Below, piece after piece: positions 2,232 to 34,874 of a stretch of DNA of 64,000 bases (the stretch's first letter is position 1; each line of letters starts with the position of its first letter). The position numbers and the translations under genes are program-made. Below the pieces are notes generated by a model. The model saw nothing but the letters and a program-made list of their open reading frames with translations. It did not search any database and was not told the DNA's origin. Origin of the DNA: Pseudomonadota bacterium (GTDB lineage Bacteria; Desulfobacterota; Syntrophorhabdia; Syntrophorhabdales; Syntrophorhabdaceae); NCBI GenBank assembly GCA_026388315.1, contig JAPLKA010000058.1, positions 62,001 through 126,000 on the forward strand, given 5' to 3'.

Positions 2232-3395
2232 ATGGGAATGAGTAGATATCTTTTTTCATCGGAATCTGTTGCAGAAGGACATCCGGACAAGGTTGCGGAT
2301 CAGATTTCGGATGCAGTGCTTGATGCCCTTATCGAACAGGACCCGAAGTCCAGGGTGGCGTGCGAGACATATGTTACTACAGGGCTTGCCCTTGTAGGCG
2401 GGGAGATTACCACGAATGGTTATGCGAATGTTCCGGACATTGTCAGGCAGACCATTAAAGAGATCGGGTACAACGATTCTTCCATGGGGTTTGACTGGGA
2501 GACATGTGCAGTGCTTACTGCTATCGATGAACAATCGCCCGATATTGCCATGGGTGTCAATGAATCGGCAGATCATGAACAGGGGGCAGGTGATCAGGGG
2601 TTGATGTTCGGCTATGCATGCACCGAAACGGCTGAATTTATGCCCATGACGATTATTTATGCCCATCGACTTGTGAGAAGGCTTGCTGAAGTCAGAAAAA
2701 GCAATATACTCAATTTCTTGAGACCTGATGGAAAAAGTCAGGTTACCGTTGAGTATATCGACAGGATTCCGGTAAGGGTTGATGCTGTTGTAATTGCCGC
2801 CCAGCATAATCCTGACGTATCGATTGCTACCATAAGAGAGGGTATCACCGAAGAGGTAATCAAGAAGGTTATCCCCCCCGAATTGATGGATGAAAAAACA
2901 AAAATCTATATCAATTCTACGGGAAGGTTTGTAGTGGGTGGGCCAAAGGGCGATTGCGGAATGACAGGCCGTAAAATTATCGTCGATACATATGGTGGCG
3001 TCGGAAGCCATGGCGGCGGCGCATTCTCCGGTAAAGACCCTTCAAAAGTGGACAGGAGCGGCGCCTATATGGCTCGGTATGTCGCAAAAAACCTTGTTGC
3101 CGCCGGACTTGCAGACAGGCTTGAGATACAGATTGCTTATACAATAGGCGTTGCTCAGCCTGTTTCTATTATGATTGATACCCAGGGTACTGCAAAGATA
3201 AACCCCGACAGGATAGCGGAGATTGTCACGGAACTATTTGACCTGAGGCCGAGGAAGATCATTGAAAAACTCAACCTGCTGAGGCCAATCTACAACAAGA
3301 CAGCCTGTGGTGGTCACTTTGGCAGGAATGATCCGGATTTCACCTGGGAAAAGCTTGATATGGTAGAAGAGATTAGAAAAAAATCAGGAATATAA
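2232..3395 (+). CDS. metK: S-adenosylmethionine synthetase
   Basis: 387 residues, the normal MetK length. It makes S-adenosylmethionine from methionine and ATP in the cytoplasm. Family motifs are visible: [18 protein letters not shown] near the N-terminus, [12 protein letters not shown], the glycine-rich [19 protein letters not shown] region (with a V-G-S-H start), and GGHFGRND near the C-terminus. A strong GAGGAGG site precedes the ATG by about 10 bases; a second ATG two codons on is possible. With ahcY just downstream it forms the core of the activated-methyl cycle. The long reading frame on the opposite strand here is a shadow. Confidence 0.97.
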
Positions 3396-3470
3396 AAACA
3401 GTGAATAGTTAATAGTGAACAGTGAATAGATTTTTACTGAATACTATTCACTAACGACTATTCACAGATT
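3396..3470. repeat. Period-7 repeat array with mirrored arms, between metK and ahcY
   Basis: Units of the type AGTGAAT, AGTTAAT, AGTGAAC, AGTGAAT follow one another with period 7. After a short T-rich centre the complementary units appear (ACTATTCACTAACGACTATTCAC), making a long imperfect hairpin. The architecture is the same as at 2124-2213 but the unit sequence differs. The ahcY ribosome-binding site AGGAGG follows. Confidence 0.78.
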
Positions 3471-5730: not shown

Positions 5731-6720
5731 ATGGAAAGATACCTTGTTGTTATTGATCCTGTTGCAAATATAAGGCGTGAGTCCATAGAAGCAGCGGGCA
5801 ATTACACCCATGATGACCTTCAGGAGACACAGGTCTTATATAATGAAGCACTTCTTTGCAGGGATGAGATTGAAGACTGGTATTATGTCGAAGCCATTGA
5901 GCAAAAGAAGCTTACCCGTAATTGCGTCTGGCAGGGATATCCGGGATGGATACGAAAAGCATCCGTGACCTTGACGGACAGACCTGTCAGGCATGATATC
6001 ACAGTAAAAAACAGCTATGCCCTCATACGAAAAGACCCTTCAATAGAATCGGTGGTTTTGCTCGTACCTCCCGTTGGTACAAGGCTTGCCGTTAAAGAAT
6101 CGACCCATGACGAATATTATCAGGTTTTGCTGGCTAATGGTCAAACCGGCTGGATTGACCGGGGCGATGTTACCAGAAGCGATATAATGCCTGCTGAGGC
6201 GATATTGAGAAAGAGTATCGTTGCCACTGCAAAGCTTTTCCTCGGTGTGCCTTATATATGGGGAGGGAGGAGCGTGCCAATAGCGGAGAGCGGAGAGCAG
6301 AAGACAGAAGACAGGGGTCAGGGTTCGGGGGTCAGCGTTAACACAAAGCGCAAAGCGCAAAGCGCAGTTCTAAAAAAATCCGAAATCCGAAATCCAAAAT
6401 CCGAAGTAACCACCGGCGTTGATTGTTCCGGCCTTATTAATCTTGTTTTCCGGGTTAACAATATCGATATTCCGCGGGATGCGCACGATCAGTGGGTGGT
6501 GGCCAAAAAAATCACCCACAATCAATTGAAGCCCGCAGATTTACTGTTTGTATCTGCTGAAGGCAGTAAAGACCAAATTACCCATGTTATGCTTTATGTT
6601 GGCAGGAAACGTTTTATAGAGGCATCAGAGACCGGCAGCGTAGTTCAGATAACTACCTTTAAGGAGAAATTCGGGATTAACAAAAAACAGATATATTTCC
6701 GGCGGGTTGTGCCCACATAA
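5731..6720 (+). CDS. NlpC/P60 family peptidase with SH3-like domains (muropeptide hydrolase type), interrupted by an in-frame repeat array
   Basis: 329 residues. An N-terminal half with SH3-like beta-rich segments (to about residue 160) precedes a C-terminal NlpC/P60 cysteine peptidase domain, as in YkfC-type enzymes that cut gamma-D-glutamyl-diaminopimelate bonds in cell-wall peptides. The domain starts with FLGVPYIWGGRS, the catalytic Cys232 is in GVDCSGLINLVF, and His285 is in ITHVMLYVG. No signal peptide is evident, which suits cytoplasmic recycling of murein peptides with the dipeptide epimerase next door (1-base overlap). Between GGRS and DCSG, where relatives have only a few residues, lie about 48 residues encoded by tandem 7-base repeats. 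Function may survive if the extra segment loops out. Confidence 0.85.
   Translation: MERYLVVIDPVANIRRESIEAAGNYTHDDLQETQVLYNEALLCRDEIEDWYYVEAIEQKKLTRNCVWQGYPGWIRKASVTLTDRPVRHDITVKNSYALIRKDPSIESVVLLVPPVGTRLAVKESTHDEYYQVLLANGQTGWIDRGDVTRSDIMPAEAILRKSIVATAKLFLGVPYIWGGRSVPIAESGEQKTEDRGQGSGVSVNTKRKAQSAVLKKSEIRNPKSEVTTGVDCSGLINLVFRVNNIDIPRDAHDQWVVAKKITHNQLKPADLLFVSAEGSKDQITHVMLYVGRKRFIEASETGSVVQITTFKEKFGINKKQIYFRRVVPT
6282..6409. repeat. Composite period-7 repeat array inside the NlpC/P60 gene
   Basis: Several 7-base families follow one another: AGCGGAG twice and AGCAGAA, GACAGAA, GACAGGG, GTCAGGG, then AAAGCGC three times, then AATCCGA, AATCCGA, AATCCAA, AATCCGA. The whole insert stays in frame and has no stop codon. 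It replaces the short linker normally found between the WGG and DCSG motifs. Confidence 0.88.
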
Positions 6721-7790
6721 TGAGCAGTATCAAGAGCATCCGTTTTTACGAAGTTGTAAGGCCCCTTAAAGTAACGTTCTCTACGGCTCTCGGGAAGAAA
6801 GATGTGATAAGAAGCATTATTGTAAAGGCAAGACTGGACAACGGTCTTTCCGGACTCGGAGAGTGCCCTACGAGTTTTGCCCTGAAGCAGGAGACCGTTC
6901 CAAGGATAAAAGAGATACTGACAGAGGCATCGCGCCTGCTCCTCAATGCGCCGATTGCCGAATACGAAGGGAAGATAAAGTACCTTCGAAAAAAATATTT
7001 TCAATATCCCATGACTATTTCGGGCCTCGAGATGGCGCTCTTCCGGGCATATCTTGCATGCAAGCATGAATTGGAATATGACCACTGGGGTGGCAGGTAT
7101 GAAGATTTAGAAACAGACATTACGGTACCTTTTATCACTGACCCTGTCCTCCTCGACAAATGGGTTGGTCACATGGCAGCGGTTGGGTTCTCTATTTTTA
7201 AACTTAAGATAAGCGGTGACATAGAGTCTGATAAAATCTACATATCCCATATTTATGAAAAACTGAAAAACGATATAAAGGGTTTTACTGTCAGGCTTGA
7301 CGGCAACCAGGGGTATACGGAAAAATCGTTTCTCCGGCTTATCGATTTTCTTACACAGAAAGACTATATGGTTGAACTGTGCGAACAGCCCCTGCCAAAA
7401 ACAAATTATAAGGGTCTCAAAGAAATAAAGAAACGCTCTCCCATGCCTGTCATCCTTGATGAAACAGTATTTACGGCTCATGACCTAATGCGGGTCATCC
7501 AGGAAGACCTTGGTCACGGAATCAACATAAAAATAGCCAAGAGTGGTATCAGCGAATCCCTCAATATTTTTTCCATGGCAAAAGCGCACAGTCTCAGACT
7601 CATGATCGGCTGCATGACAGAAACTATGACAGGACTGTCTGCCGGCATATATTTTGCCCTTGGAACCGGAGGCTTTGACTACATCGATTTAGATGCTATC
7701 CATTTTCTTCACCACAAGAACCGGTATGGCGATATACACATAGAAGGCCCTCGATATACCTATAAAAAACAAACATTTCCCTTGACATAG
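6720..7790 (+). CDS. Dipeptide epimerase (L-Ala-D/L-Glu epimerase type, enolase superfamily)
   Basis: 356 residues, muconate-lactonizing/mandelate-racemase type member of the enolase superfamily. Catalytic residues are in place: the KxK motif as Lys161 and Lys163 (FKLKISG), metal ligands Asp194 (RLDGNQGY), Glu219 (VELCEQPLP) and Asp247 (VILDETVF), and the opposite-face Lys271 (NIKIAKSG). Relatives invert the D-Glu of L-Ala-D-Glu so that the dipeptide can be degraded. The pairing with an NlpC/P60 peptidase directly upstream (one-base overlap) matches the YkfB/YkfC arrangement for muropeptide recycling. Exact dipeptide specificity cannot be fixed from the sequence. It is the last gene of the first plus-strand run. 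Confidence 0.88.
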   Translation: MSSIKSIRFYEVVRPLKVTFSTALGKKDVIRSIIVKARLDNGLSGLGECPTSFALKQETVPRIKEILTEASRLLLNAPIAEYEGKIKYLRKKYFQYPMTISGLEMALFRAYLACKHELEYDHWGGRYEDLETDITVPFITDPVLLDKWVGHMAAVGFSIFKLKISGDIESDKIYISHIYEKLKNDIKGFTVRLDGNQGYTEKSFLRLIDFLTQKDYMVELCEQPLPKTNYKGLKEIKKRSPMPVILDETVFTAHDLMRVIQEDLGHGINIKIAKSGISESLNIFSMAKAHSLRLMIGCMTETMTGLSAGIYFALGTGGFDYIDLDAIHFLHHKNRYGDIHIEGPRYTYKKQTFPLT

Positions 7791-12065: not shown

Positions 12066-12139
12066 AGACTCGAGCTCTTAGCTGATAGCTCATAGCGGCT
12101 GGTCTGTTTTTGTTCTGCCATGAGCTAATTCGCTATGGG

Positions 12140-14014: not shown

Positions 14015-14176
14015 TTACGAGGCTACGAACTTACGAGGACGAGATGACGATCTCCGAATCTGGTCCGCCAGAGAATACTTCTCTTCTGATCCTAATCTTC
14101 CTATCTTCGCAATTTCGGCTCTACCTTGCCCTTTCGCCCCGTCACTTATAACTTATAACTCAAAACTTAAAACTGA
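14015..14176. repeat. Short-period repeats in the dapA-dapB gap
   Basis: Near 14015-14038 the 8-base units TTACGAGG, CTACGAAC and TTACGAGG are in tandem. Near 14143-14173 the 7-base units TTATAAC, TTATAAC, TCAAAAC and TTAAAAC follow. No gene is seen between dapA and dapB. Confidence 0.7.
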
Positions 14177-15101: not shown

Positions 15102-15131
15102 ATTCAGCATTCAGCATTTATCAGCCATTAG
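15102..15131. repeat. ATTCAGC heptamers between dapF and dapA
   Basis: ATTCAGC occurs twice in tandem (15102-15115), followed by related ATTTATCAGCC and ATTAGC. It is the same style of period-7 filler as elsewhere in the window, with a different unit sequence. Confidence 0.6.
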
Positions 15132-21263: not shown

Positions 21264-21596
21264 ATGATGAGCGAAATCATCAAAATTATTATCACAGCAG
21301 ATAGCAAGGAAACTGCTGAAAAGATTGGCAGGGACCTTGTAGGGAGGAGGCTTGCCTCGTGTGCCCAGATTAGTGGGCCGATTAAAAGTATTTACTGGTG
21401 GAAAGGGAAGATTGAGGCGGCTGAAGAATGGGTGTGCACCTTAAAAAGCAGGAAGGGACTTTATAAAACAATTGAAAGGGAAATACGGGTACTCCACCCC
21501 TACGAACTCCCGCAAATCATAGCTATTGACATCCCCCATGTACTGCCTGAGTATGCAGACTGGATACAAAATGAAACAGTGAAAGGTGAAAAGTGA
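21264..21596 (+). CDS. cutA: Divalent cation tolerance protein CutA
   Basis: 110 residues, the typical CutA1 length. This small trimeric protein is linked to metal tolerance in enterobacteria; its molecular role is not settled. ITADSKETAEKIGRDLV, RLASCAQI, SIYWWKGKIE and HPYELPQIIAIDI are family blocks. GGAGGGT precedes the ATG. The last codons (ETVKGEK) fall in AGTGAAA/GGTGAAA heptamers, so the C-terminal tail was shaped by a repeat array running to about 21612. Confidence 0.93.
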   Translation: MMSEIIKIIITADSKETAEKIGRDLVGRRLASCAQISGPIKSIYWWKGKIEAAEEWVCTLKSRKGLYKTIEREIRVLHPYELPQIIAIDIPHVLPEYADWIQNETVKGEK

Positions 21597-21702
21597 AAAG
21601 AAAAAGGTGGAAAAAGAAAGACCGCAAAGGAAAAGAGTACAGTTCACATTTCACTATGAAAAGCTGTGAACTGTGAACAGACTGATATAGGAGGTTGTGG
21701 AC

Positions 21703-31543: not shown

Positions 31544-31579
31544 ACTCAACTCACTCTACTTACTTTACTCACTCTACTG
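31544..31579. repeat. Period-9 array upstream of the second four-helix-bundle gene
   Basis: ACTCAACTC, ACTCTACTT, ACTTTACTC and ACTCTACTG are four tandem 9-base units (the complement of the family at 26403-26429). The stop codon of the dehydratase gene (31574-31576) lies in the array. Confidence 0.82.
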
Positions 31580-33487
31580 GTTCGCTGTTTCTTCATAGTG
31601 TTTCACATATTTCTTAAGCAGTTCCTTCACTTTCCCATCATTCCCTATTGAAGATTCTGATATCAGTTCCCTGAATTCCTTCAAAATTCCTTCAATTTTC
31701 TCTATGGAATACTTTTCACTGTTTTTTGCGATAAAGACCTTTTCGTGCTTACTCGCCATTGTTCCTTCTTCGGCGGTAAGAATCTCTTCAAAGAGCTTTT
31801 CTCCAGGCCTTAAACCTATGAATGTGATATCAATATCCTTGTTTGGTTCCAAGCCGTGGATTCTTATCAGTTCCTCTGCAATATCGATAATCTTCACAGG
31901 TTCACCCATATCGAGGACAAATACCTCTCCGCCTTCACCCATGGTAGATGCCTGAAGCACCAATGATACTGCTTCTGGAATAGTCATGAAATATCTCTTC
32001 ATGTCCTTATGGGTTACCGTTAACGGGCCTCCGTGTTTCAATTGATCAAGAAAAAGTGGCAGCACGCTCCCCCTGCTCCCCAGCACATTACCAAACCTAA
32101 CAGAAATGAACCGGGTTGAGTGGTTAATTGTTTCATCCTGACCCCTAACCCCTGACCCCTGACCCCTATCGTCGTTAAACGCTTTACAAACATATTCCGC
32201 CATCCTCTTTGTTGCGCCCATAATGCTTGTTGGTCTTACTGCTTTATCGGTAGATATCATGATAAATTTCTCTACACCATAATCAACTGCAACTCTGGCA
32301 AGATTGTATGTGCCGAAAATATTTACTTTTACAGCCTCTTTCGGGTTAAACTCCATCATAGGCACATGTTTGTATGCAGCGGCGTGGAATATAATCTGTG
32401 GCTTAAATGCTTCAAAAACCTCTTTTAATCTCATTTCATCCCTTACATCACCGGTTATGTAATGTATCTGCCCGGACAAATGAGGGAATAGTCTGTTGAG
32501 TTTAAGACCAAGGTTATGTAATTCTGTCTCATCAATATCAAAAAGGATTACCTCTTCAGGATGAAAAACGCATACCTGCATTACAATCTCCGAACCTATT
32601 GAACCCCCTGCACCTGTCAGTAAAACTGTTTTTCCTAATACAAAATTACCTATTTCTTGGTAATCCACCGACACTTGTTCTCTGCCGATAACATCCTCTA
32701 TATTAATCTCTCTGATGTCAGCAAGCGTAACACTGCAATTTTCAATAATTCTTCGTATATCAGGAACAACTTTTATATCCTTTATTTCGGTTTTTCTTAC
32801 GATTGCCATTATTCTTCTCATTTCCTTACTTGTTGCCGAAGGGATGGCAATCAATATTGATTCAACATTAAACTCATTGGTAAGTTTTGGTATATCTGCA
32901 GTCGTTCCAAGTACTTTAATTCCCTGGATAGAACTCCCCTTTTTATTTATATTGTCATCTACAAAACCAATTGGAGTATATTGGCTCTTACTGTGTCGAC
33001 GCATATCCCTCGCAATTAGCTCACCAGCGCTGCCTGCACCGATAACCAACATTCCCTTTCCATCTCTTGAATATTCATTAATAATGTGGAAATAAACCCT
33101 TTTAGAAAATCTGAATGAACACACAAACAATAAAGACAATATAAAATCAAACAGCACTAAAGACAGTGAAAGTTTTTCATAGGCATTACCAGGATTGACT
33201 AAAAAATTAACAAGTAAAACACACAGCGTGCTTAAAAATAAGGCCTTAACAATATCAATGGTTTCATGGGTGCTGATAAATCTCCACGAGATCGTGTAAA
33301 GCCTGAAAATAAAAAACAGTGTAACTTTTATTAGTAAAAAAATAGGGATATACAAAAGCAGGTTGTATTGTGACGGGATGGTCCAATCGTATTTAATTAA
33401 AAATGAGAGGAAGAATGCCAACATAAAAAAGAAGATATCTCCTGCCATATAAAAAGCTACTCGTTTGTAAAAAGTCTTTTTTATCAT
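31574..33487 (-). CDS. Membrane nucleotide-sugar epimerase/4,6-dehydratase (CapD/FlaA1/PglF-like), with an in-frame repeat insert
   Basis: About 637 residues from ATG 33487 (TTG at 33520 is possible). Four N-terminal membrane helices precede a CoA-binding-like domain (VIGAGSAGELIARDM) and an SDR domain with LLTGAGGSIGSEIV, ISTDKAVRPTSIMGATKRMAEYV and RFGNVLGSRGSV. The family turns UDP-GlcNAc into the 4-keto-6-deoxy intermediate for amino sugars; like other FlaA1/PglF proteins it has Met instead of the usual SDR Tyr. At about residues 440-452, DRGQGSGVRGQDE is encoded by GGGTCAG heptamers, where relatives have a short loop before the RFGNVLGSRGSV block. It likely supplies 2,4,6-trideoxy sugar precursors for the cluster. 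Confidence 0.9.
   Translation of the reverse strand: MIKKTFYKRVAFYMAGDIFFFMLAFFLSFLIKYDWTIPSQYNLLLYIPIFLLIKVTLFFIFRLYTISWRFISTHETIDIVKALFLSTLCVLLVNFLVNPGNAYEKLSLSLVLFDFILSLLFVCSFRFSKRVYFHIINEYSRDGKGMLVIGAGSAGELIARDMRRHSKSQYTPIGFVDDNINKKGSSIQGIKVLGTTADIPKLTNEFNVESILIAIPSATSKEMRRIMAIVRKTEIKDIKVVPDIRRIIENCSVTLADIREINIEDVIGREQVSVDYQEIGNFVLGKTVLLTGAGGSIGSEIVMQVCVFHPEEVILFDIDETELHNLGLKLNRLFPHLSGQIHYITGDVRDEMRLKEVFEAFKPQIIFHAAAYKHVPMMEFNPKEAVKVNIFGTYNLARVAVDYGVEKFIMISTDKAVRPTSIMGATKRMAEYVCKAFNDDRGQGSGVRGQDETINHSTRFISVRFGNVLGSRGSVLPLFLDQLKHGGPLTVTHKDMKRYFMTIPEAVSLVLQASTMGEGGEVFVLDMGEPVKIIDIAEELIRIHGLEPNKDIDITFIGLRPGEKLFEEILTAEEGTMASKHEKVFIAKNSEKYSIEKIEGILKEFRELISESSIGNDGKVKELLKKYVKHYEETANQ
32137..32169. 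repeat. Period-7 GGGTCAG array inside the dehydratase gene
   Basis: On the coding strand the units are GGGTCAG, GGGTCAG, GGGTTAG and GGGTCAG. They are the same unit as in the NlpC/P60 insert (6310-6340) and are read in the same frame, giving RGQGSGV in both proteins. Confidence 0.85.
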
Positions 33488-33500
33488 TTTGAAATCAGAT

Positions 33501-34874
33501 TTACCTCGCTCCTTTACCAAATAAGACTACCCGAACAGTGCGCAGCAAAATATGAAAATCAAGAAATGGGGAGAGGTTCTTGATATAGAAGAGGTCGTAT
33601 TTGAGCTTCTCCAGGGCATCTTTCACCGTAGCCCCGTGCGGGTAGTTCACTTGTGCCCAACCCGTGACACCGGGCTTCACAGAATGCCTGATTGAAAAGT
33701 ACGGGACTTTTTTCTCGAATTCCTCCACCTCCTGCATCATCAGCGCCCTGGGGCCTATCAAGTTCATCTCTCCTTTAAGCACGTTCCACATCTGAGGCAT
33801 TTCGTCAATCCTGGCAACTCTTATTATCTGCCCCACTCTTGTAATACGAGGGTCATCCTTTCTTCCTGCAAATTCCCTGTCATTTTCGGTACCAATTTTC
33901 ATAGTTCTGAATTTGACTACTTCAAAAAGGCTTCCGTTCAAGCCAACCCTTTTCTGTCTGTAAAAAACAGGACCCTTTGAATCAAGTTTTATGGCAATCA
34001 TAGCCAACAGAAATAAAGGCAAGCCTATTATAAGAAACAAGGATGAAAAGGACATACTGATCAGCCTTATAATCCTTCTGTTGTAAAGGTTCTTTCTAAC
34101 ACCGTATATAGGCATATTAAGAATCCATAAATCGTTTAAATATTCGATCTGTATTTTACCGAGAACCTCCTCATAAAACGACGGCACATCATATACATGT
34201 ATTCCATTTAATTTGCAATTTAAAACATTTTTCAAAAGGTCGACATTTTTCAAATTTTTTATTGCAATAACTATATTGTCGACATGCTCGTCCCTGATAA
34301 TTCTGTTTATCGCCGTACAATCGCCCAATACCCTGATTGAGTTATACAAACCCTGCTTATCGGGATCATCGTCAATAAAACCGACTATCCTGTACGAAAG
34401 ATCATTTTTTAATATCTTATAAATATTATTTCCTGTCTTTCCCGCGCCAACAATCAGAAATCTTTTTTGTCCGGCAGGGACATATTTCTTGAATGCTATC
34501 TCAAATACCAATCTCCACAAATAGGTCAGAATACAGATCAATATTGCGTTTATAATAAAAACTTCTCTACTCAGTTCAGTCTTCGGGAAAAAGAAAAAAA
34601 TAATCAGCACTACCCATGTCGCAATAACTGTGCTTGTTAAAAATATAAATATATATCTGGCGCCTCTAAATCTGCTATCAAAATTATAAAGGTCTGCTAT
34701 GTAAAAGCAGAATATGTATGCAAAAACAATTACCAGAATTTCACTCGATGATTGGAGTGGTTCAAACACAAAAACATGGAAGCGTATTAAAGGCGCCAAA
34801 AAATAGGCACAGTAGATAAGTAAAATATCTCCCACGAGCAACAAAAACTTCTTTTTTGGAATATGTTTCAGCAT
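33501..34874 (-). CDS. Polyprenyl-phosphate sugar phosphotransferase (exopolysaccharide initiation)
   Basis: 457 residues. N-terminal membrane helices (four or five) and a nucleotide-binding-like middle region (LIVGAGKTGNNIYKILK) precede the catalytic bacterial sugar transferase domain: VFYRQKRVGLNGSLFEVVKFRTM, ARIDEMPQMWNVLKGEMNLIGPR and the C-terminal GVTGWAQVNY. It transfers a sugar-1-phosphate to undecaprenyl phosphate to start the repeat unit, at the inner membrane. The stop overlaps the alternative TTG start of the dehydratase gene. It is of the WbaP/EPS type with an N-terminal extension. Confidence 0.92.
   Translation of the reverse strand: MLKHIPKKKFLLLVGDILLIYCAYFLAPLIRFHVFVFEPLQSSSEILVIVFAYIFCFYIADLYNFDSRFRGARYIFIFLTSTVIATWVVLIIFFFFPKTELSREVFIINAILICILTYLWRLVFEIAFKKYVPAGQKRFLIVGAGKTGNNIYKILKNDLSYRIVGFIDDDPDKQGLYNSIRVLGDCTAINRIIRDEHVDNIVIAIKNLKNVDLLKNVLNCKLNGIHVYDVPSFYEEVLGKIQIEYLNDLWILNMPIYGVRKNLYNRRIIRLISMSFSSLFLIIGLPLFLLAMIAIKLDSKGPVFYRQKRVGLNGSLFEVVKFRTMKIGTENDREFAGRKDDPRITRVGQIIRVARIDEMPQMWNVLKGEMNLIGPRALMMQEVEEFEKKVPYFSIRHSVKPGVTGWAQVNYPHGATVKDALEKLKYDLFYIKNLSPFLDFHILLRTVRVVLFGKGAR

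Follow-up and report, generated by a model that had tools for sequence, protein, structure and literature searches.

A YkfC-type peptidase with an expanded active-site loop

The DNA stretch analysed here comprises 64,000 nucleotides (hereafter the window) and carries a 329-codon reading frame, open throughout, for a peptidase of YkfC type (Table 1). The gene order is AdoHcyase-like, PfkB-like, peptidase, MR/MLE-superfamily enzyme and aminotransferase, with size-matched reading frames in the sister species. Judged from this context, the MR/MLE enzyme is likely a YkfB-like dipeptide epimerase, and the locus looks as if it includes peptidoglycan-peptide recycling.

Table 1. Positions of the genes, repeats and residues discussed (window coordinates unless a contig is given).
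Feature	Position	Strand	Remarks
YkfC-type peptidase gene	5731..6720	+	329 aa, two SH3b domains plus NlpC/P60
Expanded loop of the peptidase	6268..6420	+	51 codons, residues 180-230, between Trp177-Gly-Gly and Asp231-Cys232-Ser-Gly
Heptamer family AGCGGAG	6282..6298	+	TRF; reads SGERRAE
Heptamer family CAGAAGA	6298..6314	+	TRF; reads QKTEDRR
Heptamer family CAGGGGT	6312..6335	+	TRF; reads QGSGVRG; reverse contains a stop
Heptamer family CAAAGCG	6344..6366	+	TRF; reads QSAKRKA
Heptamer family AAATCCG	6376..6405	+	TRF; reads KSEIRNP
Catalytic Cys232 codon	6424..6426	+	invariant column; aligns with Cys238 of BcYkfC (PMC2954226)
Catalytic His285 codon	6583..6585	+	invariant column; aligns with His291 of BcYkfC (PMC2954226)
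MR/MLE-superfamily enzyme gene	6720..7790	+	MR_MLE_C E 3e-28; overlaps the peptidase stop codon by one base
CapD/PseB-like nucleotide-sugar dehydratase gene	31574-33520	-	PF02719 E 4.2e-116, residues 299-599
Heptamer array GGTCAGG, second in-frame array of the window	32137..32167	-	TRF; dehydratase residues 452-462, inside the catalytic domain
54-bp palindrome, copy in the window's genome	G000:C58:54418-54476		

The peptidase matches PF00877 above the curated cut-off (E 3.6e-19, residues 227-314; 69.1 bits against a cut-off of 23), and its top structural match is YkfC of B. cereus (BcYkfC, PDB 3h41; Foldseek E 4.7e-15, 301 columns, TM 0.62/0.67). This match supports a shared SH3b-SH3b-NlpC/P60 architecture; SH3 Pfam matches were below cut-off, and NCBIfam returned no equivalog above cut-off. 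Residues of the S1/S2 pocket, including Tyr118 of SH3b1 and Asp256, have been described for BcYkfC (PMC2954226), and in the alignment to 3h41 the pocket is mostly kept (Y70, Y175, W177, D231, C232, S233, R249, D250 and H285). Ala229 of BcYkfC is replaced by glycine and Ser257 by alanine, the latter at a position that varies in other enzymes of YkfC type too (PMC2954226), and His290 aligns with Thr284. Cys232 and His285 are both retained, as the original prediction had stated. The third catalytic position, also invariant in our alignment, is Glu297, whereas BcYkfC has His303 there; we therefore name the enzyme YkfC-type rather than a proven YkfC. Its predicted activity falls into the class of the gamma-D-Glu-diamino acid endopeptidases, and the protein is presumably made and active.

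The enzyme differs from BcYkfC in the spacing of the pocket residues Trp177 and Asp231 (Trp228 and Asp237 of BcYkfC), with 54 positions between them compared with 9 in BcYkfC. The insert between them is encoded by five adjacent period-7 arrays with 2-4 copies of each heptamer family, some of them impure (TRF). Self-comparison of positions 6275-6412 gives an identity of 0.65 at lag 7 and of 0.50 at lag 14, twice the period, whereas lags 3-6 and 8-13 give 0.16-0.32. When the surrounding DNA is simulated with a first-order Markov model, chance yields about 1-2 period-7 matches per 124-140 kb. The in-frame 7-base tandem array that had been proposed for this NlpC/P60 loop is thus real, and so are its several distinct families, which however number five and not four. 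The insert, which contains the segment SGEQKTEDRGQGS, has a hydrophilic composition with many charged residues. AlphaFold, run on a shallow alignment of ten sequences, assigned pLDDT values below 50 to residues 178-229, indicating disorder; other such values were confined to short stretches within residues 12-32 and to residues 64-68, the remainder lying mostly at 70-95.

The same loop in related genomes

No second strain of the window's species turned up for comparison. In relatives lacking significant arrays, the length of the NlpC/P60 loop ranges over 7-41 residues; most have 7-27, and 14-17 is typical. The loop of the window is therefore longer than in these relatives, as predicted, with 51 residues between the WGG and DCSG motifs, but the "about six" residues expected elsewhere were an underestimate. 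A significant array was detected by the lag-7 test in 5 of 25 loops. One of these belongs to the sister species (G002/L033), which carries a loop of 81 residues at the same place, in frame and with a heptamer array. It opens with families common to the window's loop (AGCGGAG, CAGAAGA and GGGGTCA) and then diverges. According to the protein alignment, the shared start is longer in the sister by seven residues, equal to three AGCGGAG units (21 nt); the DNA alignment divides the repeat difference otherwise, as is usual for tandem repeats. In total the two loops differ by 90 nt, which is divisible by three. Identity between the two species is 54% across 48 aligned loop codons and 93% in the flanks.

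Heptamer arrays of different families occupy this loop in two further genera, one represented by L005 and L007 and the other by L010. A tree from which the loop was left out requires at least three changes of array state, and the minimum numbers of changes on the trees of the loop families are 3 and 5. It had been suggested that the same segment in homologues from unrelated genomes would speak against an invasion; the shared segment is confined to the genus, and the other genera have different arrays at this place, an observation in favour of a loop that tolerates insertions.

Because the genomes are fragmented, that of the sister having been assembled from a metagenome, and repeats assemble badly, an assembly or binning artefact has to be considered. 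It is, however, barely credible, since in-frame arrays of different sequence stand at the same codon position in the assemblies of two species and in several other genera. Equally implausible, in our view, is a removal or skipping event at the level of the RNA or the ribosome that would give a protein without the insert. Harm might be expected from an insert beside the active site, yet direct evidence of such an event was not found, and the arrays inspected in the NlpC/P60 loop, and in the RluD and KdsB loops described below, are all in frame and stop-free, and skipping would relax both constraints. Moreover, the window's array folds no better than its shuffles (z 0.48), and no stable hairpin is predicted in it.

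Palindromic elements adjoining and entering the arrays

The sister loop holds a palindrome of 54 bp (G002:C162:7165-7229; fold z -3.05). It is genus-specific: 16 copies were found in the sister, including the one in the loop, and 6 in the window's genome, compared with 0 copies in 19 other relatives. The copy listed in Table 1 lies 13 kb upstream of the window's peptidase gene, is intergenic and heptamer-flanked, and has the same right-hand flank. The 54-bp palindrome often adjoins heptamer arrays. A 25-base palindromic motif, TGCCCTCGANNGNNTCTATCGGGGG, is likewise set in heptamer arrays (G002:C28:18101-18125 and G000:C110:108433-108457) and occurs in frame in two genes, NadE in the sister and a CzcA/CusA-like pump gene in the window's genome. 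Given the palindromes inside the sister loop, NadE and the pump gene, dispersed non-coding elements do enter coding loops. A search against Rfam returned only sub-threshold miRNA matches, on a sister-species stretch outside the peptidase gene. Across genomes, the count of Y1 transposases (PF01797) correlated weakly with heptamer density (rho 0.44, p 0.04), a relation confounded by kinship; Y1 transposases could possibly be linked to the spread of the palindromes.

A genome-wide population of heptamer arrays

The arrays of the peptidase loop belong to a large population. In 264 kb of the window's genome, 68 period-7 arrays were observed where about 3 were expected. The scanned stretches amount to about 731 kb of the window's genome, with 113 arrays, and 593 kb of the sister, with 161. 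The arrays are strongly biased to intergenic DNA, and a limited heptamer repertoire that includes all five loop families dominates among them. Further, mostly intergenic arrays of the window lie at 2141-2207, 3380-3429, 12073-12096, 14144-14174, 15102-15118 and 21568-21678. A relation between the heptamer load of a genome and the presence of loop arrays looked significant at first but faded when the loops were masked (rho 0.43, p 0.09; 0.33, p 0.15) and is therefore not claimed.

Arrays in other enzymes

Evidence from other genes was limited to proteins with clear domain matches, as many of the array-overlapping reading frames in the scan are probably spurious. In RluD, the loop that immediately precedes the catalytic HRLDK motif holds a significant array in 16 of 28 relatives, made up of many different heptamers, and a loop of KdsB does so in 4 of 25; these rates, and those for other enzymes, are biased because the enzymes were picked for arrays in the window's or the sister genome. 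Among the RluD loci of relatives (L154-L183), most members of the family have different arrays in this loop; within one genus the loop stays near 34 residues (32-39) though its units change. All inspected RluD loops are open, including two more loci missed by the search pattern. The gap between two RluD matches at the loop site is 12-33 nt in 14 genomes of other families, so among the genomes searched only this lineage shows the expansion. In-frame arrays in single genomes were found in NadE and CobB of the sister and in the CapD-like dehydratase of the window. The CzcA/CusA-like pump and a UvrD-like helicase appear to be similarly hit, by sequence resemblance.

These observations bear on the possibility that the array is a phase-variation switch, in which adding or losing a single 7-base unit ahead of the catalytic cysteine would shift the frame and silence the enzyme, as happens in neuO. 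A 7-base unit does break the frame unless it changes in threes, the array does lie upstream of the catalytic residues, and the coding heptanucleotide AAGACTC of neuO in E. coli K1, present in 3-53 copies, is ON at copy numbers divisible by 3 (PMC13001214). However, the peptidase has short, partly impure runs of five families instead of many copies of a single unit, arrays also occur in the housekeeping enzymes RluD, KdsB and NadE, and all inspected relatives are open-frame, whereas 66% of the K1 neuO genomes are OFF (PMC13001214). We consider a switch of this kind improbable.

Probable selection on reading frame and content

The stop-free, more hydrophilic orientation lies on the coding strand in 33 of 39 loop units, compared with 43 of 101 intergenic arrays whose neighbouring genes run in the same direction. 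The combined Fisher test gave p 1.4e-4 for arrays that are not independent of each other, and the two halves of the data were borderline (p 0.067 and 0.073). The openness of any single array is weak evidence because intergenic arrays of at least 60 nt are open in 30% of their frames. For the peptidase we obtained a dN/dS ratio of 0.40 across the flanks and of 0.23 for the part that follows the insert. Together, the orientation bias, dN/dS and low pLDDT suggest that the insert is translated, tolerated and disordered. We further infer that it is neutral or nearly so.

The loop could instead have been recruited as a charged, disordered lid or tether beside the S1/S2 pocket, either changing how substrates gain access or binding to wall polymers. 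Its position between two pocket residues, its hydrophilic, charge-rich composition and its retention in two species would fit such a role. On the other hand, it is far less conserved between the two species than its flanks, relatives manage with 7-18 residues, and the same kind of insert is present in unrelated enzymes. Recruitment is accordingly unlikely, although less so than a switch, and the original suggestion that the loop is used for something new found no positive support.

Discussion

The other suggestion of the original prediction, that repeats invaded the gene at a tolerated loop, is upheld by the dispersed families, the different in-frame arrays of relatives, the disordered insert and the many cases in the lineage. 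Our preferred reading, to which we assign a probability of roughly 78%, is that selfish or neutral repeats are still spreading into permissive loops, where they are translated through under purifying selection on frame and solubility. Genome-wide 7-base tandem arrays and small palindromic elements would colonise a permissive surface loop of the YkfC-type peptidase, and translation would proceed through the arrays. Selection would then purge insertions and expansions with a broken frame, stops or hydrophobic peptides, leaving as survivors hydrophilic, disordered insertions with continuing turnover of units. Spread probably proceeds by slippage plus copying between arrays; at a new locus, arrays might arise by slippage from short seeds, be copied from other arrays or be carried in by the palindromic elements. 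More speculatively, heptamers and small palindromes may keep remodelling the same enzyme loops in frame throughout the family, as a steady source of disordered segments beside active sites, some of which are maybe functional; we put this broader idea forward as a tentative one that is rather doubtful at present.

To our knowledge, Rickettsia provides most of the known cases of selfish DNA lying in frame in bacterial proteins. The invaders here are 7-base arrays, which break the frame unless gained in threes and yet recur in the loops of housekeeping enzymes in many genera. In the open-access literature searched, with incomplete coverage, we found no account of heptamers repeatedly colonising the same enzyme loops. 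The system lets one measure the entry of repeats into genes, the tolerance of different protein sites and whether insertions gain a use, and it offers a natural test, in an uncultured bacterial lineage, of how repetitive DNA becomes new protein sequence.

Three known systems allow a comparison. The Rickettsia palindromic elements (RPEs) are dispersed palindromes of about 150 bp that lie in frame in unrelated genes (Ogata et al. 2000/2002; PMC10969869). Similarly, the repeats described here are dispersed and in frame in unrelated genes (RluD, KdsB, NadE, CobB, the CapD-like dehydratase and the NlpC/P60 peptidase), are apparently tolerated, and in the sister's loop include a dispersed palindrome. 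Unlike an RPE, the window's insert consists of composite heptamer arrays without a hairpin, the sister's palindrome is only about 54 bp long, and in our case the units turn over and arrays recur in one and the same loop in different genera. The cyanobacterial STRRs and the heptameric repeats of Xanthomonas, Nostoc and Beggiatoaceae are reported to be under-represented in coding regions (PMC4692102, PMC4679880). They share with our case the dispersed 7-base tandem units in many, mainly intergenic copies, but here there are many families, some of them in frame inside enzyme domains. The heptanucleotide repeat of neuO, finally, is also translated in frame, but it is one long uniform repeat near the 5' end that serves phase variation, whereas the arrays reported here are short, mixed, internal and spread over many genes. 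The present case therefore combines features of the RPEs and of the heptameric repeats, without the long single-unit repeat of neuO.
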